A DNA stretch of 64,000 nucleotides, from positions 4,836,001 to 4,900,000 of the forward strand of contig NZ_CP146022.1 of assembly GCF_036967205.1 (NCBI RefSeq). Reading direction: 5' to 3'. Shown here in pieces: positions 22,701-38,057 of the stretch. The stretch comes from Streptomyces sp. Q6 (GTDB taxonomy: Bacteria; Actinomycetota; Actinomycetes; Streptomycetales; Streptomycetaceae). The position numbers and the translations under genes were made by a program. The notes beneath the pieces were generated by a model, which saw only the letters and a program-made list of their open reading frames with translations, was not told the DNA's origin and did no database searches. Position 1 is the stretch's first letter. Each line of letters begins with the position of its first letter.

Positions 22701-22840
22701 GGCGTGCGCGCGCAGGGACCAATGCCCGTTTGTGTCTGTCGCGTGCCTGAATCTGTTTACTTTCTGGAAATCCAGTCGTAGCCTCACGATAGAGCAACAC
22801 ATTCGGGCACGCGCGGCGAAGAAGGCACAGGTAAACGGGC

Positions 22841-27073: not shown

Positions 27074-27161
27074 AAGCCTCGTACGGCATCTGTCCGGCAC
27101 CCGTACGGCACCTATACGCCGTGCATGACGGGAACTGTCCGTTCCTGCGATATACGTCACG

Positions 27162-27183
27162 GTCCGGGACCAAAGTCCCGGAC
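27162..27183. promoter_or_regulatory. DevR/OsdR-type dormancy box and perfect dyad
   Basis: GTCCGGGAC-CAAA-GTCCCGGAC is a perfect 9-bp inverted repeat. Its core GGGACCAAAGTCCC (27166-27179) matches 13 of 14 positions of the mycobacterial DosR/DevR core GGGACTWWAGTCCC, which the Streptomyces OsdR regulator is reported to resemble. It lies 20 bases upstream of the small membrane protein gene at 27204. Confidence 0.6.
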
Positions 27184-27203
27184 TGTGGTGTTCACTGGAT
27201 CGC

Positions 27204-27461
27204 ATGCCTGAGCACGTGTCGATCCTTCAGCAGATAGGCCTGGCGATTCTCGCGGTCGCCACTGTGGCATGGGTGGTCGGCCTCGTCCGCCTGGTGCGCG
27301 CCGTCGCCGCCACGCCGCCGGAGCCGCTGCCGCGCTCCCGCTCCCTGCCACTGGGCCTGCTGCCCGGACAATCGCAGGCTCCCGCCGTGGAGTCGGTGCC
27401 GCTGTCGGCCGACGAACAGGACGCTTTCGCGGGCCTGGTACGGCAGTTCAGCCGCCGGTAG
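27204..27461 (+). CDS. Small single-pass membrane protein, possibly hypoxia-controlled
   Basis: The 85-residue protein has one N-terminal membrane helix (LAILAVATVAWVVGLVRLVRAV, about 12-34), a Pro/Ser/Arg linker and an acidic-to-basic tail (SADEQDAFAGLVRQFSRR). No family is recognised. The start ATG 27204 lacks a strong ribosome site. A near-perfect DevR/OsdR-type box sits directly upstream, suggesting induction under oxygen limitation or nitric oxide. Conserved function is unknown, and it is followed by a short 7-base repeat array. Confidence 0.65.
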   Translation: MPEHVSILQQIGLAILAVATVAWVVGLVRLVRAVAATPPEPLPRSRSLPLGLLPGQSQAPAVESVPLSADEQDAFAGLVRQFSRR

Positions 27462-27555
27462 CCGGTAGCGAATAGCCAGTAGCCGCTAGCGAATGGCCGG
27501 TAGCCGGTAGCCGGTAGCCGCTAGCCAGTAGCCATACCGGTAGTCGATGGCCGGT
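27455..27555. repeat. 7-nt TAGCCGG/TAGCCAG repeat array
   Basis: Near-tandem heptamers (CCGGTAG, CCAGTAG, CCGCTAG) run through the convergent spacer, with three perfect consecutive GTAGCCG units near 27500. TAG stops recur in one frame. No function is evident. Confidence 0.75.
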
Positions 27556-27560
27556 GGCTC

Positions 27561-28325
27561 CTACTGGTGGCCCTGGCTGCATCCGGTGCGGCGCTCGATC
27601 GCCGCGCGTGCCGCCTGCTGCGTCAGGTAGACCTCGCACATGTGCCGGCCGTCCGGTGTCGCCGTGTGCTCGACCTCCCAGAGGCTGACCTCGCACCCGT
27701 CGCGCAGCAGGAACGCGTGCTCGTACAGCGCGAAGCCATGACTTATACGGCGGCCGAACGCCTGCGTGATCTGGTGTGCGCACGCCTCCCGCAGCAGCCG
27801 TGCCGTGCCCGGCCCGGGGCGGGTCGTCGCGTCCGGGTTCTCCGCGCGGCGCAGCAGCCTGCGCGCGTGGTCGACGGAGCTGTCCGGGTCGGCGGGGCCG
27901 AACGTGCGGCGCTGTGGCGGGACCGGCGCCAACTGCACCGGGGCGATCGGGGCCTGGAGGTCGAACGCGGGCGCCGCCTCCGGGGGCAGCGGCAGCCGTC
28001 CCGTCGCCAGATGGAGCTCGTCCTCGGTGACGTACACCTCGTGCTGGGGCAGGCCGTCGCGTCCCGTGTTGTGCACGAGCTCCCACAGCGTGCGCGAACT
28101 GCCGTCGGCGAGCAGCCAGGTGTGCCGGTACGTCTCGCGGTGCAGGCCGGCGCTGTGGTGCGCCGAGTGCAGCGACGTGTCGTAGGCGAGTGCCGTGTCG
28201 AGCAGCCGCAGAGTCTCCTCGGGCAGCTCGAAGGAGTTCAGCGCACGACCGAGCAGACGGGCGAGTTCATCGTCGGGCGCGGCTTCGGGAGCTGTGGTCG
28301 GCTCGAAGTCGTACGGAACGCTCAA
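27561..28325 (-). CDS. DUF6227-type hypothetical protein
   Basis: The most likely start is TTG 28325, preceded by GGGAGG with a 4-base spacer and yielding (M)SVPYDFEPTT. An ATG at 28340 would add five residues. The 254-residue soluble protein contains two related halves: LLGRALNSFELPEETLRLLDTALAYDTSLHSAHHSAGLHRETYRHTWLLADGSSRTLWELVHN near 20-85, and a second near 185-230 (FALYEHAFLLRDGCEVSLWEVEHT). The similar xxH-x5-DG-x5-LWE elements suggest an internal duplication. It resembles a Streptomyces-restricted family of unknown function. Confidence 0.75.
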   Translation of the reverse strand: MSVPYDFEPTTAPEAAPDDELARLLGRALNSFELPEETLRLLDTALAYDTSLHSAHHSAGLHRETYRHTWLLADGSSRTLWELVHNTGRDGLPQHEVYVTEDELHLATGRLPLPPEAAPAFDLQAPIAPVQLAPVPPQRRTFGPADPDSSVDHARRLLRRAENPDATTRPGPGTARLLREACAHQITQAFGRRISHGFALYEHAFLLRDGCEVSLWEVEHTATPDGRHMCEVYLTQQAARAAIERRTGCSQGHQ

Positions 28326-28449
28326 GGCACCTCCCGGCATCGCTGCATGTCACCTTGTGGGTGCATACCGTAGCCCCTGGGTCCGACATCATGTCCTCGA
28401 AATCGCAAACGGGGAAGGGCAATTGGGCAACGTGCCTGCACAACGCGTC

Positions 28450-28477
28450 GGCCGCGCGGGAGGTTCCCGCACGGCCG
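28450..28477 (-). terminator. Hairpin after the L,D-transpeptidase gene
   Basis: CGGCCGCGCGGGA and its near-complement TCCCGCACGGCCG form a GC-rich stem with a 2-3 base loop and one mismatch, 25 bases past the stop. Confidence 0.5.
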
Positions 28478-28501
28478 GTGCGTCGTGCGGTGGCGCGCAG
28501 G

Positions 28502-29695
28502 TCAGGCGGCGCTGCCAGCGGTCCACTGACTCCATGACATGTTCCAGCCATTGAGGCCGTTGTCCGGGGCGATCGTCTTGTCGTGCGAGTTCTTCATGAC
28601 CACGACGTCCCCGACGAGCGAGTGGTCGTAGAACCACTTGGCGGTCGTGTCGCCGCCCGCGCCCTTCACGTCCCGCATGCCGACGCAGCCGTGGCTGGTG
28701 CCCTGGCTGCCGAAGATGCCGGGGGAGCTCCAGTAGTTGCCGTGGATGAACGTGCCGGACTGCGACAGGCGCATCGCGTGCGGCACGTCCGCGATGTCGT
28801 ACTCGCCGCCGAAGCCGACCGTCGAGCCGTTCATCCGCGTCTGCACGAACTTCTCCGAGATCACCATCTGGCCGTTGTACGTGGGGTGTTGGTCGCTGCC
28901 CGTCGACACCGGGACGGTCTTGATCGTCTGCCCGTCGCGCACGACCGTCATCTGCTGCGTGTTCGCGTCGACGGTGGAGACCTGCGCGCGGCCGACGGTG
29001 AAGGTGACCGTCTTCTTCTGCACGCCGTGCACGCCCTTCGCCCCTTCGACGCCGTCGAGGTCGATCTTCATCGTGACCTTGGATCCGGCCTTCCAGTACT
29101 GCTCGGGCCGGAAGTCGAGGCGCTGCGAGCCGAACCAGTGGCCGACGATCGGCTGACCGCTGTCGGACGAGACCGCGATGTGCGACTGGACGGCCTTCTT
29201 GTCCGTGATCGCCTTGTCGAAGGTGAAGGAGACCGGCATCCCGACGCCGACCGTCGAGCCGCCGTCCGGCGTGTACGTGCCGATGAAGCTGTTCGCGCTC
29301 GACACGGTCGTGAAGACGGAGTTGGCGGCCGCCGTGTGGCCCTCGCCGTCCTTGGCGGTCGCGGAGATGCGGTACTTGGTGCCGCGCTCCAGCTGCTTCG
29401 CGGGCTTCCAGGACGCGCCGTTCGCGGTGATGCTGCCCGCGATCTGCTCGCCGGAGGCGGGCTCGGTCATCTTCACGGAGGTCAGCTTGCCGTCGCTGAC
29501 CTCGACCCCCGTGGCGTTGATGGACGCGCCGGTCGAGCCGTCCTTCGCGGAGATGGTGATCCGCGGGGCGTCCTTGCCGCCGCCGTCCTTGCCGCCCTTG
29601 TTCCCCTCGGCGCTCGCGTCGCCGCCGCAGGCCGTGAGGGTGAGCGCGCCGATGGCGAGCGCGGCCCACGCGACGGCTATGTTCTGCTTCCGCAC
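28502..29695 (-). CDS. L,D-transpeptidase lipoprotein (Ig-like plus YkuD)
   Basis: The enzyme forms 3-3 peptidoglycan cross-links outside the membrane. GTG 29695 follows AGGAG, giving 397 residues. The lipobox LTLTAC puts the lipidated Cys at 23. Two Ig-like domains occupy about 50-250, as in mycobacterial LdtMt2-type enzymes. The YkuD catalytic domain at about 255-375 has HGNYW and SHGCVGM with nucleophile Cys337. The C-terminal Trp-rich tail (GWNMSWSQW) fits this class. It would act in carbapenem-sensitive, beta-lactam-tolerant cross-linking. Confidence 0.93.
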   Translation of the reverse strand: MRKQNIAVAWAALAIGALTLTACGGDASAEGNKGGKDGGGKDAPRITISAKDGSTGASINATGVEVSDGKLTSVKMTEPASGEQIAGSITANGASWKPAKQLERGTKYRISATAKDGEGHTAAANSVFTTVSSANSFIGTYTPDGGSTVGVGMPVSFTFDKAITDKKAVQSHIAVSSDSGQPIVGHWFGSQRLDFRPEQYWKAGSKVTMKIDLDGVEGAKGVHGVQKKTVTFTVGRAQVSTVDANTQQMTVVRDGQTIKTVPVSTGSDQHPTYNGQMVISEKFVQTRMNGSTVGFGGEYDIADVPHAMRLSQSGTFIHGNYWSSPGIFGSQGTSHGCVGMRDVKGAGGDTTAKWFYDHSLVGDVVVMKNSHDKTIAPDNGLNGWNMSWSQWTAGSAA

Positions 29696-29809
29696 GGTCT
29701 GCTCCTGTTCCGCGTGAATCATCCGGTACGGGGAGAGAGCCCGAGCGGGACGGAGAGGTTCCGTCCGGTTGATGTGAAGGCAGACACAGGGACAGTTCCG
29801 TGACGCCTG

Positions 29810-31287
29810 TTACGCGCCTGTGGGGCGTTCCTGCGCATCCTGCGCGCCTGGTGCGTCCTGCGCGCCTTGTGTGTCGTGTGTGTCATGTGGGCTGGGCGGG
29901 CCGTAGAGGTCGCCGTACGCCGGATACGTCCCGGCGGGGCCGTGCAGCGACTGCGCCGCCCGTACGGCCCGGACGATCGCCCGCGTCACCAGATCCGCGC
30001 CGGCCGCGAGGATCTCGTTGAGCGCGAGCGGATCCGCGGCGTCGAGCGGCCGGTCGCCGGTGGCGAGTGCGAAGACCGTGTCGCCGTCGTTCAGCAGATG
30101 TACGGGACGGACGGCGCGCGCGATGCCGTCGTGCGCGGTCCCCGCGACCTTCTGCGCCTGAGCACGGCTGAGCTCGGCGTCGGTGGCGACGACGGCGAGG
30201 GTGGTGTTGAGCGGGGCGTTCGTGGTCGGGGTGTGCGGCGGCCGGGGGCCCGTGGTCGGGGCGTCCGTGGGCGGGGTATCCGCGTGCCCGGCGTTCGCGG
30301 GAGGGGCGTCCGTGGGCGGGGTATCCGCGTGCCCGGCGTTCGCGGGAGGGGCGTCCGTGGTCGGGGTATCCGCGCGCCCGGCGTTCGCGGGAGGGGCGTC
30401 CGTGGTCGGGGCATCCGCGCGCCCGGTGTCCGTGCGCGGGGCGTCGGTGGTCGGGGCATCGATGGTCGGGGCGTCGATGGTCGGGACGTCGATGGTCGGG
30501 GCGGCCGCGTGTCCGCCGTCCCCGGGAGGGGCATCCGCGTACCCGGCATCCGTACCGAGCGGTCCCACCCCGTTCGTCGCCGCTGCCGCCGCCAGTCGCG
30601 CGCGGGCCGCCTCGTGCACCTCGGGGGCGGGGTACGTCACCGGTCCCGTGCCCGCGAAGAACTCCCCGTACAGCGCCCCGGTCGCCGGGTCCACCACCGA
30701 GCCCGCCGCGTTGGCGACGACCAGCGCGGCGACCGTGATGCCGGAGGGGAGCACGGTGGACGCGGTGCCGATGCCGCCGCGCAGGGGCCTACGAGGGCGC
30801 CGGTGCCCGCGCCCGTGTTGCCCTCCTGGACGGGGGCGCCCAGGCCGGTCGCCGCCGCGGCCTCGACCGCGGCGCGGCCCGTCGACGCGTCGGGGCGGGC
30901 CCGCCAGTCGCCGCCCCTGCCGAGGTCGAAGACGCAGGCCGCGGGCACCACCGGGACGACCTGCCCGGGGCCGCCCACCGGGACGCCCCGGCCCTGCTCC
31001 TCCAGCCACGCCATCACGCCCGACGCCGCGTCGAGCCCGTACGCGCTGCCGCCCGTCAATACGACCGCCTCGACGCGCTGCACCAGATTGCGCGGATCGA
31101 GCGCGTCGGTCTCCCGGGTGCCGGGGCCGCCGCCGCGCACGTCGACGGCGGTGACGATGCCGCCCGGCGGGGCGAGCACCACCGTGGTGCCGGTCAGCCG
31201 ACCGTCGCCGGTGCGGGTGGCGTGACCGACGCGCAGGCCGGCCACGTCGGTGAGGGCGTCGTTGCGGTGCGGGGAGGTCGCTGTCAT
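29810..31287 (-). pseudogene. P1/DmpA-type peptidase (S58) with frameshift near 30784-30787
   Basis: From ATG 31287 one frame encodes the N-terminal half of an S58 peptidase (NDALTDVAGLRVGHATR, LTGGSAYGLDAASGVMAWLEE, NTGAGTGALVG). The C-terminal half (RGGIGTASTVLPSGITVAALVVANAAGSVVDPATG and LSRAQAQKVAGTAHDGIARAVRPVH) is in another frame. Adding one C to the C-run (G-run on the plus strand) at 30784-30787 joins them as GALVGPLRGGIGTAS. The family self-processes into two chains and hydrolyses N-terminal amino acids or amides. A repeat-rich insert lies in the C-terminal half. Confidence 0.85.
30228..30520. repeat. 45-nt and 15-nt repeats inside the peptidase gene
   Basis: Several copies of a 45-base unit encode DAPPANAGHADTPPT-like segments. 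They are followed by 15-base units encoding APTID/VPTID. Repeat copies differ by single substitutions, which points to recent expansion. Confidence 0.85.
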
Positions 31288-31392
31288 GGCCCATGCGTAC
31301 CACGGCAGTTGACCCGCACCCGGGGGCTACGGCGTCCGCGCCGCCCGTACCAGGGGACTACGCGTCCGCGCGGCCTCCACCAGGGGCGCTGA

Positions 31393-31502
31393 GCCGTCCG
31401 CACCGCCCGCACCGATGGAGCTATGCCGCCCACACCGGTGGAACTAAGCCGTCCGCGCCGCCCGCACCGATGGAGCTATGCCGCCCACACCAGTGGAGCT
31501 AA
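31393..31502. repeat. Two 55-bp direct repeats after ltrA
   Basis: 31393-31447 and 31448-31502 are tandem 55-base copies with three differences. Partial copies flank them (31340-31392 and 31503-31535). Each contains ATGGAGCTATGCCGCC and ends in TAA, so it contains no extended reading frame. Confidence 0.8.
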
Positions 31503-31530
31503 GCCGCCCGCGCCCCGCGTACCAGGAGCG

Positions 31531-32775
31531 CTAAGCCGTCCGCGCCCCCCGCACCTCACGCGCGGAGAGCGTCACCCCGGTCACCACCGCGAGCGCCATC
31601 ACGATCCCCGCCGTGAGCACCGCCCAGTGCCCGGCGAACGTGGTCGCGAGCACCAGCACCGCGCACACCGGCAACGTCAGCTGCTGCGCCACGCCCGCCT
31701 TGAAGAACCGCGCGTGCAGCGCCCACACCATCAGCAGGAACACCGCCGTCGGCACCGTCACGGCCGCCGACGCCGCCGTCGTCGAGAGGTGGGCCTCGCC
31801 GACCGACTGCTCGACGGCGACCTCGATGCCCGCGCCGATCGCCGCCGCCGACGCGAAGATGAAGTAGTGGCCGTATCCCCACACGAACGCCTGCCGGTTG
31901 TCCTGCAACCGGTCGTGGATCGGCACCGCGAAGTAGATCCACCAGGCCGCGAACACGATCAGCAGGCCGCCCGCCGCGATCGGCAGCAGCTCGCCCAGCG
32001 CGTCGTTCTCCTCGATGCCCGACTTCACCGCGACCGTCGCCGCGGCGATCGACTCGCCGAGCACGATGATCGTGAACAGGCCGTAGCGCTCGGCGATGTG
32101 GTGCGCGTGCCAGGACGTCTGCCGGTCCCGCTCCGCGTACACCGGAACGCACATCTCCAGGACCGCCATCGCCAGGAACACCCAGTTCTGCGCGGCGCCC
32201 GTCGGCACGAGCATCAGGGCCAGCCAGCCGACCTGGCACGCCAGCACTCCGCCCGCGTACCGCAGCGCGACCCTGCGCTCGGCGCCGCTGGAGGCCGCCG
32301 CGGCCCGCAGCCAGTGCGCCGCCATCGCGACCCGCATGATCAGGTAACCGAGCCAGACGACCGTGAAGTTGTCGTGCTCGAAGGCCTGCGTGATCCCGGC
32401 CGCCAGGACGAGCACGCCCGCGATCTGCACGAGCGTGACGACTCGGTAGAGCGCGTCGTCGTTGTCGTACGCGGAGGCGAACCACGTGAAGTTCATCCAC
32501 GCCCACCACACCGCGAAGAAGATCCGCGCGTAGTCGATCACCCCACTGCCCGCGTGCCCCTCGGCGACGGCGTGCACCAACTGCACCCCGCCCTGCGCCA
32601 CGGCGACGACGAAACACAGGTCGAAGAAGAGCTCCAGCGGCGACGCGACCCGATGCTCCTCGTCGCGCCCGCGCTCGACCATGCGGCGCACGGGGGAGCG
32701 GTGGTGAGCAACCGCAGGAGCGCCGGGCGAGCCGGGTCCGCCGGGCGGGTGGGGCGTGTCTGGCGTGGAGGTCAT
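31531..32775 (-). CDS. Low temperature requirement protein A (LtrA) family membrane protein
   Basis: The start is ATG 32775, giving 414 residues; an open frame extends further upstream but lacks family character. About 11 membrane helices are present. Family motifs are ELFFDLCFVVAVAQ near 48-61, FAVWWAWMNFTWFASAYDNDD near 86-106, and HIAERYGLFTIIVLGES near 228-244. LtrA proteins occur widely in actinobacteria, but biochemical function is unknown. The gene is convergent with repeats and divergent from narK. Confidence 0.85.
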   Translation of the reverse strand: MTSTPDTPHPPGGPGSPGAPAVAHHRSPVRRMVERGRDEEHRVASPLELFFDLCFVVAVAQGGVQLVHAVAEGHAGSGVIDYARIFFAVWWAWMNFTWFASAYDNDDALYRVVTLVQIAGVLVLAAGITQAFEHDNFTVVWLGYLIMRVAMAAHWLRAAAASSGAERRVALRYAGGVLACQVGWLALMLVPTGAAQNWVFLAMAVLEMCVPVYAERDRQTSWHAHHIAERYGLFTIIVLGESIAAATVAVKSGIEENDALGELLPIAAGGLLIVFAAWWIYFAVPIHDRLQDNRQAFVWGYGHYFIFASAAAIGAGIEVAVEQSVGEAHLSTTAASAAVTVPTAVFLLMVWALHARFFKAGVAQQLTLPVCAVLVLATTFAGHWAVLTAGIVMALAVVTGVTLSAREVRGARTA

Positions 32776-32919
32776 GCGCACAGGACAGCAGATCGGCCCA
32801 CGGCGGGCGAACCGGCACGCGTCCACCGGCCGGTGCTCTCCCGGGCGGTGCGGGCGAGGCCGGGGCGGCCCGCCCGTCCGGCTCGCGACCCGCCGGACGC
32901 CCAACGGGAGCCGCCCGCA

Positions 32920-32934
32920 GGGACTTTGGTCTCC
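32920..32934. promoter_or_regulatory. DevR/OsdR-like box upstream of narK
   Basis: GGGACTTTGGTCTCC matches 12 of 14 core positions of the DosR/DevR consensus GGGACTWWAGTCCC. It lies 115 bases before the narK start. A related half-site (GACCAAGTCCTC) lies at 32968-32979. Confidence 0.5.
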
Positions 32935-33049
32935 CCGGATCGGGACCCTTCGGCGCGCCCCCGGGGCGACCAAGTCCTCTTACGCCCCTTTTAGCCCGGC
33001 GCGAATCTGGAGAGGCCAGGGAAACCCTCCTCACCACCAGGAACACGTC

Positions 33050-34483
33050 ATGAGTCCTGCCGTCAGGGACGCCGCCGCGGTCGACGACGTCACCCGTTCC
33101 TACGACCCCCAGCAGTACCGGCCGGGTCGCACCATCTCCGACTGGGAGCCCGAGAACGAGCTCTTCTGGAAGTCGGTCGGCAAGCGCGTCGCCGCCCGCA
33201 ACCTGTGGATCGCCGTCCCCGCCCTCCTGGTCGCCTTCGTGGTGTGGCAGGTGTGGAGCGTCACCGCGACGAACCTCGCCGACGTCGGCTTCAGCTTCAG
33301 CACCTCGCAGCTGTTCTGGCTGACCGCCGTCCCGGGTCTGACCGGCGGCACGGCCCGGATCTTCTACACCTTCCTCGGCCCGCGCATCGGACAGCGCCGC
33401 TTCACCGCGCTGTCGACGCTGGTCCTGGTGATCCCGCTGATCTGGCTCGGCTTCGCCGTCCAGGACACCAGCACCCCGTACGCCGTGATGGTCGCCATCG
33501 CCGCGCTCTGCGGCTTCGGCGGCGCCAACTTCGCGTCCTCGCTGGCGAACATCGGCTTCTTCTTCCCCAAGCGCGAGAAGGGCAACGCGACCGGCATCAA
33601 CGGCGGCCTCGGCAACCTCGGCGTCTCCGTCGTCCAGCTGCTCACCCCGATCGTCATCACCAGCTCGGTCATCGCGCTCGGCTCCGCCCAGCACAAGGCC
33701 GACGGCACCCCCGTCTACCTTCAGAACGCCGCGTTCATCTGGGTGCCCGTCCTGGTGATCCTGGCCGCCGTCGCCTGGTTCGGCCAGAACGACCTCAAGG
33801 TCGCCTCCACCCCCTTCAAGCAGCAGAAGGTCATCTTCAAGCGCAAGCACAACTGGCTGATGACCTGGCTGTACGTCGGTACCTTCGGCTCCTTCATCGG
33901 CTTCGCCGCCGCTCTGCCGATGCTGATCAAGACCACCTGGACCCCGATCGACGCCGCCTACACGGCCGCCACATACGCCTGGATCGGCCCGGCCATCGGC
34001 GCGCTCGCCCGCTGGGGCGGCGGCTGGATCGCCGACAAGCTCGGCGGCGCCCGCGTCACGATCCTCTCGTTCGTCGGCATGGCCGCCTCGATCATCGGCG
34101 TCATCGCCTTCATGCCCTCGAACGGGGCCGGCGGCAACTTCTGGGGCTTCCTCGCCTGCTTCTACCTGGCGTTCTTCTTCAGCGGCATCGGCAACGGCTC
34201 CACGTTCCGCCAGATCCCCGTGATCTTCCGCAGCCAGCACCTGAAGGGCCTCACCGAAGGCACGCCCGCGTACACGAAGGCGCTGAAGCAGGCGGAGATG
34301 GAGTCCGGTGCCGTCACCGGCTTCACGTCGGCGATCGCGGCCTACGGCTTCTTCTTCATCCCGGCGATGTTCGCCAACTTCGCGGTCACCAGCGCCCTGT
34401 GGTGCTTCGTCGGCTTCTACGCGACGTGCGTCGTCGTCTGCTGGTGGTTCTACGCCCGCAAGAACGCCGAGTCCCCGAGCTGA
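33050..34483 (+). CDS. narK: NarK-type nitrate/nitrite MFS transporter
   Basis: ATG 33050 follows AGGA with a short spacer. The 477-residue membrane protein has about 12 helices. The nitrate/nitrite porter signatures are GGTARIFYTFLGPRIGQRRF near 103-122 (with the conserved Arg), FGGANFASSLANIGFFFPKREKGNATGINGGLGNLG near 159-194, and WGGGWIADKLGG near 322-333. NarK proteins import nitrate or exchange it for nitrite in anaerobic respiration. It precedes pflBA on the same strand after a 228-base regulatory gap, with an upstream DevR-like box, so oxygen-limited expression is inferred. Nitrate reductase genes are not in the window. Confidence 0.9.
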   Translation: MSPAVRDAAAVDDVTRSYDPQQYRPGRTISDWEPENELFWKSVGKRVAARNLWIAVPALLVAFVVWQVWSVTATNLADVGFSFSTSQLFWLTAVPGLTGGTARIFYTFLGPRIGQRRFTALSTLVLVIPLIWLGFAVQDTSTPYAVMVAIAALCGFGGANFASSLANIGFFFPKREKGNATGINGGLGNLGVSVVQLLTPIVITSSVIALGSAQHKADGTPVYLQNAAFIWVPVLVILAAVAWFGQNDLKVASTPFKQQKVIFKRKHNWLMTWLYVGTFGSFIGFAAALPMLIKTTWTPIDAAYTAATYAWIGPAIGALARWGGGWIADKLGGARVTILSFVGMAASIIGVIAFMPSNGAGGNFWGFLACFYLAFFFSGIGNGSTFRQIPVIFRSQHLKGLTEGTPAYTKALKQAEMESGAVTGFTSAIAAYGFFFIPAMFANFAVTSALWCFVGFYATCVVVCWWFYARKNAESPS

Positions 34484-34498
34484 CGTTCGCAGCCCTTT

Positions 34499-34518
34499 CT
34501 TGTGAATACGTTCACAAG
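34499..34518. promoter_or_regulatory. Rex operator upstream of pflB
   Basis: CTTGTGAATACGTTCACAAG is a perfect 8-bp dyad around TACG. Its core TGTGAATACGTTCACA matches the S. coelicolor Rex operator form TGTGAAN4TTCACA. Rex represses at low NADH/NAD+, so induction under high NADH (oxygen limitation) is predicted. It sits 194 bases before the pflB start. Confidence 0.85.
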
Positions 34519-34525
34519 CGAACTT

Positions 34526-34539
34526 GGGTCGAAAGTCCC
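34526..34539. promoter_or_regulatory. DevR/OsdR-like box 1 upstream of pflB
   Basis: GGGTCGAAAGTCCC matches 12 of 14 positions of the DosR/DevR core GGGACTWWAGTCCC and begins 8 bases after the Rex operator. Confidence 0.5.
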
Positions 34540-34591
34540 GCAGAAAACCCCAGGTCACCTGGGAAATGCCCGGCGAGGGCGGCGTGAAAGT

Positions 34592-34618
34592 GGGTCCTTT
34601 GGTCCTGAACTCAGGACC
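34592..34618. promoter_or_regulatory. DevR-like box 2 and GGTCCTGA dyad upstream of pflB
   Basis: GGGTCCTTTGGTCC (34592-34605) is a weaker box. It overlaps GGTCCTGA-AC-TCAGGACC (34601-34618), a perfect 8-bp dyad. A second regulator site or a hairpin in the leader are both possible. Confidence 0.4.
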
Positions 34619-34711
34619 ATTGCGGCCCGCCGGACCGCCCTCACGGGAGTCCAATGAATACGCAGCAAAGAACGCAGCGAACCGCTCGAAGAGATGGGGA
34701 AGGTGCCGCAG

Positions 34712-36982
34712 ATGACTGCCACGCCCGCGGAGAAGACGACGCACGGCCAGGCCTGGAACGGCTTCAAGGGAGGCCTGTGGCGCGACGCCATCGACGTCCG
34801 CGACTTCGTGCAGCAGAACTACACGCCCTACGAGGGCGACGGCTCCTTCCTCGCCGGACCGACCGAGCGCACCACCGCCGTCTGGGACAAGCTCCTCTCG
34901 ATGTTCCCGACGGAGATCGAGCGCGGCATCCACGACGTGGACGTGAAGACCCCGTCCCGCATCGACGCGTTCAGGCCCGGCTACATCGACGGTGACGCCA
35001 AGGACCACAAGGACCTCATCGTCGGCCTCCAGACGGACGCCGCGCTCAAGCGCGCGATCATGCCGAACGGCGGCTGGCGGATGGTCGAGGGCGCCCTCAA
35101 CGCCTACGGCTACGAGGCCGACCCCGAGGTCCGCGAGATCTACACCCACCTGCGCAAGACCCACAACGAGGGCGTCTTCGACGCGTACACCCCCGAGATC
35201 CGCGCCTGCCGCTCCTCCGGCATCATCACCGGCCTGCCCGACGCCTACGGCCGCGGCCGCATCATCGGCGACTACCGCCGCGTCGCCCTCTACGGCGTCG
35301 ACCACCTGATCGCCGCCAAGCAGGCCGACAAGGACGCGCTGGCCGCCGAGTGGCCCACCGAGCACGTCATCAGGGACCGCGAGGAGATCTCCGAGCAGAT
35401 CAAGGCCCTGAACGAGCTCAAGGCGATGGCCCTGTCGTACGGCTACGACATCTCCGCCCCGGCCACCACCGGCCGCGAGGCCGTCCAGTGGCTGTACTTC
35501 GCCTACCTCGCCGCCGTGAAGGAGCAGAACGGCGCGGCCATGTCGATCGGCCGCATCGACAACTTCCTCGACATCTACCTCCAGCGCGACATCGAGGCCG
35601 GCCGCATCACCGAGTCCGAGGCCCAGGAGTTCATCGACGACTTCGTCATCAAGCTCCGCATCGTCCGCTTCCTGCGCACCCCCGAGTACAACGACCTCTA
35701 CTCCGGCGACCCGACGTGGGTCACCTGGTCGATGGCCGGCATCGGCGAGGACGGCCGCCCGCTCGTCTCGCGCACCACCTTCCGCGCCCTCCAGACCCTC
35801 TACAACCTCGGCCCGGCCCCCGAGCCGAACCTCACGGTCTTCTGGTCGCGCGATCTCCCCAAGGGCTTCAAGGACTTCGCCTCCCAGGTCGCCATCGACA
35901 CCTCGGCCATCCAGTTCGAGTCCGACGAGCTGATGCGCCCCAAGTACGGCGACGACACCGCCATCGCCTGCTGCGTCTCCGCGATGGCCGTCGGCAAGCA
36001 GATGCAGTTCTTCGGCGCCCGCGTCAACGTCGCCAAGGCGCTCCTCTACGCGATCAACGGCGGCCGCGACGAGAAGACCGGCAAGCAGGTCGTCGAGGGC
36101 TTCGAGCCCATCGAGGGCGACATCCTCGACTACGAGACCGTCGCCGCACGCTACGACGCGATGCTCGACTGGCTGGCCAAGACGTACGTCCACGCGCTCA
36201 ACGTCATCCACTACATGCACGACAAGTACGCCTACGAGCGCATCGAGATGGCCCTGCACGACCGGGACATCCTGCGCACCATGGCCTGCGGCATCGCGGG
36301 TCTGTCGGTGGCCGCCGACTCCCTCTCGGCCATCAAGCACGCGAAGGTCAAGGTCGTCCGCGACGAGACCGGCCTGGCCGTCGACTACGAGATCGACGGC
36401 GACTACCCGGCCTACGGCAACAACGACGACCGCGCCGACGACATCGCCAGGTCGATCGTGCACGGCTTCATGGAGAAGGTCCGCAAGCACCCCACGTACC
36501 GCGACGCGGTCCACACCCAGTCGGTGCTGACCATCACCTCGAACGTCGTCTACGGCAAGAAGACCGGCAACACCCCGGACGGCCGCCGCTCCGGTGCCCC
36601 CTTCGCCCCCGGCGCCAACCCGATGAACGGGCGCGACGAGCACGGCTACATCGCCTCCGCCCTGTCGGTCGCGAAGCTGCCCTACGACGACGCCGAGGAC
36701 GGCATCTCGCTGACCAACACGATCACTCCGGACGCGCTGGGCCGCACCCCCGAGGAGCGCGTCGGCAACCTCTCCGGCGTGCTCGACGGCTTCATGGCCA
36801 GCGACGGCTTCCACATGAACGTGAACGTCCTGAACAAGGCGACCCTCGAGGACGCCATGGAACACCCGGAGAACTACCGGCAGTTGACCATCAGGGTCTC
36901 CGGCTACGCGGTGAACTTCGTCCGTCTGACGCGCGAGCAGCAGCTGGACGTCATCAACCGCACCTTCCACGGCTCCCTGTGA
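34712..36982 (+). CDS. pflB: Formate C-acetyltransferase (pyruvate formate-lyase)
   Basis: This glycyl-radical enzyme converts pyruvate and CoA to acetyl-CoA and formate, and its radical form is destroyed by oxygen. ATG 34712 follows GAAGG; ATG 34694 is possible. The 756 residues are close to E. coli PFL (760). The adjacent catalytic Cys420-Cys421 lie in IACCVSAM and the radical Gly731 in RVSGYAVNF. The PFL-type N-terminal segments are intact. Its activase follows 48 bases downstream. In a Streptomyces this implies function during micro-aerobic or anaerobic survival rather than growth. Confidence 0.97.
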
Positions 36983-37030: not shown

Positions 37031-37834
37031 ATGACCGTCATGCTCACCCAGAACCTCGCAGCGAACGACGCCGCCACCCCGGCCGCCGCCGCGACGCACC
37101 GCCCCACCGAGGGCTCGGTGCACTCCTGGGACCTGTCGACCGGCGTCGACGGGCCGGGCACACGGTTCGTGACGTTCCTCTCGGGCTGCCCCCTCACCTG
37201 CCTGTACTGCCACAACCCCGACACCTGGCGGATGCGCAACGGCAAGCGGACCTCGGCCGACGACATCGTCGCGGAGGCGGCCAAGTACACCCGGTTCATC
37301 GAGGCCGCGGGCGGCGGCGCCACCATCAGCGGCGGCGAACCGCTCCTCCAGCCCGTCTTCACCGGTGAACTGCTGCACCGCTTCAAGCACGAGCTGGGCC
37401 TGCACACCGCGCTGGACACCTCGGGCTTCCTCGGGGTGCGCGCCACCGACGCCCTGCTGCGCGACGCCGACCTGGTCCTGCTCGACATCAAGTCCTGGGA
37501 CCGCGCCACCTACAAGAAGGTCACCGGACGCCCGCTCCAGCCCACGCTGGACTTCGCGCACCGCCTCGCCGACCTCGGCAAGGACGTGTGGGTGCGCTTC
37601 GTGCTCGTCCCCGGCCTGACCGACGACCCCGCCAACATCGAGGGCGTCGCCGCCTTCGCCGGCTCCCTGGGCAACGTCTCGCGGGTCGACGTCCTGCCCT
37701 TCCACAAGCTCGGCGAGGCGAAGTGGCAGGCGCTCGGCAAGACCTTCACGCTGCACGACACCCCCTCGCCCACCCCCGAGCAGGTCGCCACCGCCAAGTC
37801 GATCTTCGAGGCCCACGGCCTCAAGGCCGTCTGA
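37031..37834 (+). CDS. pflA: Pyruvate formate-lyase activating enzyme (radical SAM)
   Basis: The enzyme installs the glycyl radical on PflB using SAM and a [4Fe-4S] cluster. The start is ATG 37031 with GAGGAGG upstream. The 267 residues have the cluster motif SGCPLTCLYCHN near 51-62, giving CxxxCxxC, preceded by SVHSWDLSTGVDGPGTRFVTF. SAM-binding ISGGEPLLQ lies near 98-106 and the later barrel part is LDTSGF. It is about 20 residues longer at the N-terminus than E. coli PflA. It is cotranscribed with pflB. Confidence 0.96.
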   Translation: MTVMLTQNLAANDAATPAAAATHRPTEGSVHSWDLSTGVDGPGTRFVTFLSGCPLTCLYCHNPDTWRMRNGKRTSADDIVAEAAKYTRFIEAAGGGATISGGEPLLQPVFTGELLHRFKHELGLHTALDTSGFLGVRATDALLRDADLVLLDIKSWDRATYKKVTGRPLQPTLDFAHRLADLGKDVWVRFVLVPGLTDDPANIEGVAAFAGSLGNVSRVDVLPFHKLGEAKWQALGKTFTLHDTPSPTPEQVATAKSIFEAHGLKAV

Positions 37835-37859: not shown

Positions 37860-38057
37860 ATGAGTACCGCCCCTGACCCGGAACCCGGGGAGCCGCGAGC
37901 GCGTGACCCCAAGGCCGCGCTGATCTTCGACGACCCGCTGACGGCGCAGTCCGCGGACGACAGCGACCGTGGCTGGGGCGACCGCCCGGCGGCGAGTGAC
38001 AACAGCGCCGCCGACCTGGCCCGCTTCCTCGACGAGAAGCCGCCCCACCACCTGTGA
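37860..38057 (+). CDS. Small acidic hypothetical protein
   Basis: The 65-residue hydrophilic product starts at ATG 37860 (MSTAPDPEPGEPRARDPKAA) and is Asp/Ala/Pro-rich with a conserved-looking ending (DLARFLDEKPPHHL). There is no membrane segment or motif, and the ribosome site is weak. It lies 25 bases after pflA and converges with mscL. No family is recognised. It may be an ordinary small chromosomal gene. Confidence 0.5.
   Translation: MSTAPDPEPGEPRARDPKAALIFDDPLTAQSADDSDRGWGDRPAASDNSAADLARFLDEKPPHHL

Follow-up and report, generated by a model that had tools for sequence, protein, structure and literature searches.

Streptomyces are usually regarded as obligate aerobes, yet they must survive in anoxic soil. 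This report concerns a candidate fermentation switch in Streptomyces sp. Q6, namely, the promoter of the pyruvate formate-lyase (PFL) operon pflBA, in which predicted binding sites for the NADH sensor Rex and for an O2- and nitric oxide (NO)-responsive regulator of the DevR/OsdR class lie side by side. The promoter belongs to a 64,000-nucleotide stretch of DNA, referred to below as the window (bases 4836001 to 4900000 of contig 1 in a two-contig, 8.95-Mb genome).

The closest described systems of the second kind are OsdKR of S. coelicolor and DevRS (DosR) of Mycobacterium tuberculosis. The likeness extends to the palindromic boxes (for OsdR, consensus AGGGCCGATCGGCCCT; PMC5069765) and to DevR-class regulators accompanied by a haem-GAF kinase. 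At DevR-controlled promoters, the start-proximal site overlaps the −35 region and neighboring sites are bound cooperatively (PMC3029386), an arrangement that for pflBA is predicted from the positions of the sites. No Rex operator is described in the accessible accounts of OsdKR and DevRS promoters, whereas here a unit of Rex operator and box, with fixed spacing, lies upstream of both pfl and adhE. A tie between PFL and the OsdR regulon is already known from S. lividans, where a different pfl (SCO0206) is coexpressed with that regulon (PMC6302529).

The Rex operator is the same as in the regulons of S. coelicolor and S. avermitilis; in the accessible text on these regulons, the Streptomyces targets described are respiratory, developmental, and others, and pfl and adhE are named for Staphylococcus aureus alone (PMC5355995). 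Control of these two genes by Rex is known for S. aureus: there, Rex binds ahead of both pflB and adhE, and the involvement of another anaerobic regulator, possibly SrrAB, has been suggested; neither DevR-type boxes nor a shared fixed geometry is described in the accessible part of that account (PMC2883068). Among the best-ranked literature matches, subscription papers and RegPrecise itself aside, no report of Rex or OsdR, or of a joint module of the two, at Streptomyces fermentation genes was found.

Predicted composite promoters of pflBA and adhE

Rex operators (ROPs) were defined as TTGTGAA-N4-TTCACAA, with the reversed pattern as the control, and DevR-type boxes were scored against GGGACNWWNGTCCC, with shuffled sequences or the reversed pattern as controls. 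The elements of the pflBA locus are as follows.

34499 to 34518, no strand assigned: ROP, a perfect 20-bp dyad, CTTGTGAATACGTTCACAAG; centre at about −153.5 from the predicted start
34526 to 34539, plus strand: DevR/OsdR-type box 1, GGGTCGAAAGTCCC; 1 mismatch, 26 bp after the start of the ROP, centre at about −129.5
34592 to 34605, plus strand: DevR/OsdR-type box 2, GGGTCCTTTGGTCC; 92 bp after the start of the ROP, centre at about −63.5
34613 to 34626, plus strand: DevR/OsdR-type box 3, AGGACCATTGCGGC; left half alone well conserved, centre at about −42.5
34650 to 34655, plus strand: predicted −10 element of pflB, TCCAAT; predicted transcription start at about 34662
34694 to 36982, plus strand: pflB, pyruvate formate-lyase (TIGR01255, 1160.8 bits, cut-off 994.2), with CC at residues 426 to 427 and RVSGY at 734; orthologues begin at 34712, possibly the true start
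37031 to 37834, plus strand: pflA, the pyruvate formate-lyase activating radical-SAM enzyme (TIGR02493, 294 bits, cut-off 231.75), with the motif CPLTCLYC
37860 to 38057, plus strand: 65-residue open reading frame (ORF) 3′ of pflA, conserved at loci L329, L331, and L166 (L-numbers here and below denote individual loci) and possibly part of the pflBA operon

The original prediction, made from the letters of the window, placed a perfect Rex-type dyad and a DevR/OsdR-like box before pflBA. Both are real: the 18-bp ROP core at 34500 to 34517 has 0 mismatches, and the box at 34526 to 34539, with its single mismatch, is conserved in position. Boxes 2 and 3 and the −10 element are additions to that prediction, as are a weak second box at narK and an adhE gene with a like architecture elsewhere in the genome.

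The ROP core is the sole match in the window at up to 3 mismatches (shuffle mean, 0.12). A scan of the whole genome, which the original prediction had proposed together with a check for rex, yielded two perfect cores, one before pflBA and one before adhE (NF010378, bifunctional AdhE, 1365.4 bits, cut-off 951), and 13 sites with up to 2 mismatches versus 0 for the reversed pattern. Four of the 13 are letter-identical to the S. avermitilis rex, cydA, nuoA, and wblE operators, and a fifth is one letter off the atpI operator of that species (PMC5355995); among the four identical sites, the identity of the downstream gene was confirmed for the rex site alone. The rex gene itself was found (NF003992, 391.6 bits, cut-off 226), followed by a match to hemA. 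That hemA match (L034:5133-6810) ends at residue 286 of its frame and is followed by a second open frame, the break perhaps being a frameshift or an assembly error in an essential gene.

Conservation was assessed in a sample of 199 Streptomyces genomes. A PflB match of any length was present in 66 of them and an AdhE match with an E value printed as 0 in 44; the upstream regions of 30 PflB and 30 AdhE loci were examined, and loci with at least 75% identity for PflB or at least 77% for AdhE were classed as window type. Among window-type loci, an ROP with 0 or 1 mismatch was present at 15 of 25 for pfl and at 15 of 16 for adhE, compared with 0/5 distant pfl loci and 0/14 other adhE loci; in 600 shuffles per gene, the nearest ROP was still 3 mismatches away. 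Exact ROPs numbered 26 in 18 of 101 Streptomyces genomes (control, 0), with 9 before pfl and 9 before adhE.

Five of these 26 operators (L329, L330, L331, L333, and L334) are located between ltrA and mscL, an interval in which no narK or pflB match was present at these loci; in L329 and L331, the ROP is directly 5′ of the conserved 65-residue ORF. Such ROPs, standing without narK-pflBA, may be fossils or operators of a Rex-controlled small gene. One further exact ROP, in L332, occupies another location.

An exact ROP followed, after 8 bp, by an OsdR-type box was also searched for with one genome per species in 84,980 species, possibly excluding the genome of the window. All 68 matches were in Streptomyces, including such named species as S. 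xanthochromogenes and S. atratus, with 40 before pflB, 26 before adhE, and 2 apparent relics, whereas fewer than 1 match was expected (hand arithmetic with equal base frequencies). By eye, one relic (L166) retains pfl-like promoter boxes with no pfl behind them and the other (L155) an adhE-like promoter without adhE.

Counted from the start of the ROP, box 1 lies at +26, a distance fixed by the search pattern, and box 2 lies at +92 in pfl and +93 in adhE; box 3 is at +113 in pfl and has a weaker adhE counterpart near +115. The −10 element T[GC][CG]AAT starts at +150 in 35 of the 40 pfl promoters (in 3, none was found, and in 2, it is shifted by 1 to 2 bp) and at +152 in all 26 adhE promoters. 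At both genes, boxes 2 and 3 are about 21 bp apart and box 3 starts 37 bp ahead of the −10 element. With the transcription start assumed to be 12 bp past the first base of the −10 element, box 3 is centered at −42.5 and box 2 at −63.5, so that pfl and adhE both have a close tandem of boxes with the proximal one, box 3, over the −35 region in degenerate form; this predicted placement is in keeping with the DevR rule for proximal sites.

Among the AdhE loci of the genus sample, 10 long-form promoters have an OsdR-type box 26 bp past the start of the ROP, as in pfl (weak in L117), and 4 short-form promoters, about 70 bp shorter, have a box that begins 19 bp past the start of the ROP and, measured by hand, again 37 bp ahead of the −10 element. 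In many pfl promoters in the range L094 to L107, the interval from box 3 to the −10 element also contains, by eye, a conserved palindrome, TGATCGATCA; the window lacks this palindrome.

The ROP and box 1 are jointly present or jointly absent in 23 of the 25 window-type pfl loci. Fourteen have both (12 in exact register, with L103 and L106 shifted), and 9 that lack the ROP show 7 to 10 mismatches at the place of box 1; in these same 23 loci, the −10 element is kept and box 2 (1 to 5 mismatches) and box 3 (3 to 5 mismatches) are in place. One of the two remaining loci, L093, has neither the ROP nor the boxes. Because the ROP and box 1 are absent together while the core stays, they look like a unit distinct from the core OsdR-type promoter.

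Regulators, a proposed mechanism, and its alternatives

The original prediction would have been refuted by the absence of rex or osdR. In addition to rex, the genome contains three DevR-class response regulators (100, 73, and 64% identity to the query; the next members are at 42 to 44%), which are 58 to 73% identical pairwise and all have M. tuberculosis DevR as their best solved relative. One of the three is located near a pyruvate phosphate dikinase gene, as is osdR in S. coelicolor (PMC5069765). Another adjoins a GAF-GAF-HisKA_3 kinase. The first GAF domain of this kinase is a match to the DosT and DevS haem domains, and the match takes in an HHPPM stretch. The histidine in this stretch is presumably the haem ligand.

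The surroundings of two of the regulators yielded side observations. Around the osdR-like gene (L047, contig 1, 404001 to 424000) are genes for universal stress proteins, pyruvate phosphate dikinase, phosphoketolase, HypF, and an iron-sulphur protein, a content that hints at a hydrogenase locus within the OsdR region. The third regulator gene (L036:4029-4868, minus strand, contig 1 at about 4.367 Mb) has a dehydrogenase E1 gene as a neighbor, and its own end is closely followed by a perfect DevR-type box.

We propose that the pflBA promoter is a composite switch in which OsdR-type activation is gated by Rex, and we assign this reading a probability of about 0.75. Its observed basis consists of the sites themselves, their fixed geometry and conservation, the co-occurrence of the ROP with box 1, and the encoded regulators and enzymes, from which we infer binding, an acting DevR-class regulator among the three, a transcription start, an anti-activation step, and the resulting physiology. 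A fall in O2 or a rise in NO would lead the haem-GAF kinase to phosphorylate an OsdR/DevR-class regulator, which would then bind the tandem boxes near −42.5 and −63.5 and recruit RNA polymerase to the weak −10 element TCCAAT. Further upstream lie the ROP (about −153.5) and, directly next to it, a third OsdR-type box (about −129.5); at low NADH, Rex on its operator would hinder the assembly of OsdR at the adjoining box or otherwise hold the promoter shut, and a rise in NADH would cause Rex to leave. Full firing would require both O2 shortage (or NO) and NADH accumulation. PFL, together with AdhE, which would be under the same switch, could then support formate and ethanol fermentation with reoxidation of NADH. 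The original prediction had spoken of a possible dormancy programme; the gene content, pfl plus adhE, points to fermentation. The predicted convergence of two sensors on pflBA, as put forward in the original prediction, has strong comparative support, and regulators of both kinds are encoded.

Several observations weigh against this reading. At about −153, the ROP is far away for simple occlusion of polymerase, and the role of Rex at this distance is the least certain step of the mechanism. Compared with the full palindrome, box 3 is a poor match, with 3 to 5 mismatches, and the expression for the −10 element was drawn up after the alignment had been seen. The ROP is lacking from 10 of the 25 window-type pfl loci, so that Rex control appears dispensable in some species. 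Neither the pfl locus L088 nor the adhE locus L128 has boxes with its ROP, L127 has neither ROP nor boxes, and at L091 and L092, which lack an ROP, a box-like sequence stands at another upstream position. Furthermore, common ancestry of the pfl and adhE promoters is possible, in which case their likeness is not necessarily independent evidence. Finally, DevR-type boxes with up to 2 mismatches number 13 in the window versus a shuffle mean of 11.45, and 29 of 100 shuffles reach 13. The probability of 0.75 takes into account the uncertain role of Rex at −153 and the poor fit of L088, L128, L127, L091, and L092.

The near-chance box count raises the possibility that the DevR-type boxes are fortuitous matches in a GC-rich genome. 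Genome-wide, too, the excess at up to 1 mismatch is modest (86 versus 52 for the reversed control), so that counts of the single motif are uninformative, and a box before the fru operon, described below, is kept in none of 17 relatives. Judged by conservation and position, however, the boxes stand above chance, being kept in place across species and at two unrelated genes. We consider chance a very improbable explanation overall: conservation refutes it for pfl and adhE as well as for the small membrane protein gene discussed below, and at narK chance may still account for the box.

A different arrangement would be two promoters without direct interaction and without an AND gate, with Rex repressing a separate upstream promoter that overlaps the ROP and OsdR activating the downstream one. 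The distance of about 150 bp between the ROP and the predicted −10 element in the long form would suit such an arrangement, as would the retention of the OsdR core in ROP-less pfl promoters and the mode of action of S. avermitilis Rex, which represses from sites that overlap promoters or lie immediately downstream of them (PMC5355995). However, no conserved −10 element was seen, by eye, close behind the ROP, which has an OsdR-type box as its neighbor in the long and the short promoter form alike and is lost together with box 1; we regard two promoters as unlikely. The constant closeness of ROP and box in both promoter forms favors interference with OsdR over occlusion of polymerase.

With three class members in the genome, all closest to DevR among solved proteins, the boxes might also belong to a DevR-class regulator other than the OsdR orthologue, such as that at L036:4029-4868. 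Speaking for OsdR, pfl SCO0206 of S. lividans, though a different pfl, rises with the OsdR regulon (PMC6302529), and narK of S. coelicolor has been predicted as an OsdR target (PMC5069765). Assignment to another class member appears less plausible than to OsdR.

In its most extended form, the composite switch would amount to a hard-wired AND gate over a complete PFL-AdhE fermentation in a Streptomyces lineage, built from a promoter module of about 150 bp that sits on two unrelated operons with spacing conserved nearly base for base. Rex would keep the distal OsdR site blocked, so that synthesis of an oxygen-sensitive glycyl-radical enzyme would require both an excess of NADH and a signal from the O2/NO two-component system, and the ROP and box 1 would be gained or lost as a unit. 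We see the chances of this extended version as even.

narK and the 85-residue membrane protein gene

Two further genes of the window had been linked to the same regulon in the original prediction. Their features are as follows.

33050 to 34483, plus strand: narK, nitrate/nitrite transporter (TIGR00886, 320.5 bits, cut-off 311.7)
32920 to 32933, plus strand: narK DevR-type box 1, GGGACTTTGGTCTC; 1 mismatch, weakly conserved
32943 to 32956, plus strand: weak second narK box, GGACCCTTCGGCGC; 23 bp downstream of box 1, low confidence
27204 to 27461, plus strand: 85-residue membrane protein gene, predicted leaderless
27158 to 27187, no strand assigned: inverted repeat around the DevR-type box at 27166 to 27179, GGGACCAAAGTCCC; box with 0 mismatches
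27191 to 27196, plus strand: predicted −10 element of the small gene, TTCACT (TSTACT in relatives)

In the genomic context, the small gene follows a fructose phosphotransferase system operon and is followed by genes for a DUF6227 protein, an L,D-transpeptidase, an S58 peptidase, and LtrA on the opposite strand; beyond LtrA come narK, pflB, pflA, the 65-residue ORF, and mscL.

The DevR-like box predicted before narK is present in the sequence. Its position is kept in close relatives while its letters drift; with up to 2 mismatches, it was recovered in 5 of 13 scored regions (two of which, L220 and L227, are internal narK matches) versus 17 of 260 shuffles. In total, 21 upstream regions were taken, 8 of which gave no scored start. 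The conservation of the box is thus weak, and narK is a possible OsdR-type target, as predicted for its S. coelicolor counterpart (PMC5069765).

The box at 27166 to 27179, described in the original prediction as the closest DevR-like match and as preceding an 85-residue protein gene, is the sole perfect DevR-type box in the window. The protein has, by eye, one membrane helix and a conserved tail, E.VELTpaE.dAFAGLvR (70 sequences), and orthologues occur in 74 of the 199 genomes. Of 70 upstream regions examined, 67 were anchored, by eye, on the conserved −10 element. A GGGMC-N4-GKCCC box with up to 1 mismatch within 90 bp was present in 52 of the 67 versus 52 of 1,400 shuffles, in three arrangements: in 35 orthologues, the box is embedded in a longer inverted repeat and lies about 31 bp ahead of the predicted start; in 6, the distance to the start is about 53 bp, and a degenerate second box follows after about 23 bp; in the other 11, a classical OsdR-type box is located some 66 bp ahead of the start. 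The proposal that this gene is a new member of the regulon is supported by conservation of the box, whereas the −31 position departs from the −42.5 rule and the long repeat extends beyond a DevR-type box. Overall, the gene is probably a further OsdR-type target, without a Rex site.

Alternatively, the palindrome could form a hairpin in RNA or be bound by a different regulator, in which case its resemblance to a DevR box would be secondary. In most relatives, the inverted repeat is longer than the box; L245 and L270 keep the repeat and have lost the box letters, and in L241 and L253 the middle of the repeat is shorter by one base. Conversely, two other orthologue groups carry DevR-type boxes without the long repeat, and the repeat also occurs in L055 and L056, which have no fruA match within 1,500 bp upstream. 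Wobble and A-C mismatches stand at 42:10 in this repeat and 32:8 in the pfl and adhE boxes; the similar ratios reveal no RNA-like signature, so that wobble does not discriminate. A hairpin or foreign site is, in our view, rather doubtful.

Other readings were rejected. The palindrome is not a plain fru terminator: although fruA matches precede the gene in 24 of 30 loci, L055 and L056 have the repeat without such a match, as stated. For an extracytoplasmic function (ECF)-type promoter of the small gene (GGGAAC-N17-CGTC), the upstream half was, by eye, not common to the relatives. A box ahead of the fru operon, GGGACCAATGCCCG at 22715, had looked like another target but is kept in 0 of 17 relatives (best, 3 mismatches); a box-like stretch 22 bp upstream of it is, by eye, part of a terminator-like hairpin. 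Conservation is thus not automatic in this neighborhood, and the fru box serves as a negative control.

Elsewhere in the genome, tandem DevR-type boxes 20 bp apart, with a third box upstream, were noted at an RpfC-like resuscitation-promoting-factor gene (L029:9909-10277, minus strand, contig 1 at about 2817912 to 2818550) that scores below the curated cut-off. Boxes with up to 1 mismatch lie upstream in 4 of 30 Rpf loci (its own, L299, L300, and L310); the 26 without such boxes are paralogues or relatives that are more distant.

Implications for Streptomyces fermentation

The comparison maps a candidate fermentation switch in a definable group of Streptomyces species and predicts the exact bases for mutation. 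It would join two sensing systems, NADH via Rex and O2/NO via the OsdR type, that in Streptomyces have been found studied separately so far. The Streptomyces Rex regulon, mainly respiratory to date, is suggested to include fermentation genes in some lineages, as in Firmicutes, and the switch suggests how Streptomyces might ferment once air is exhausted.

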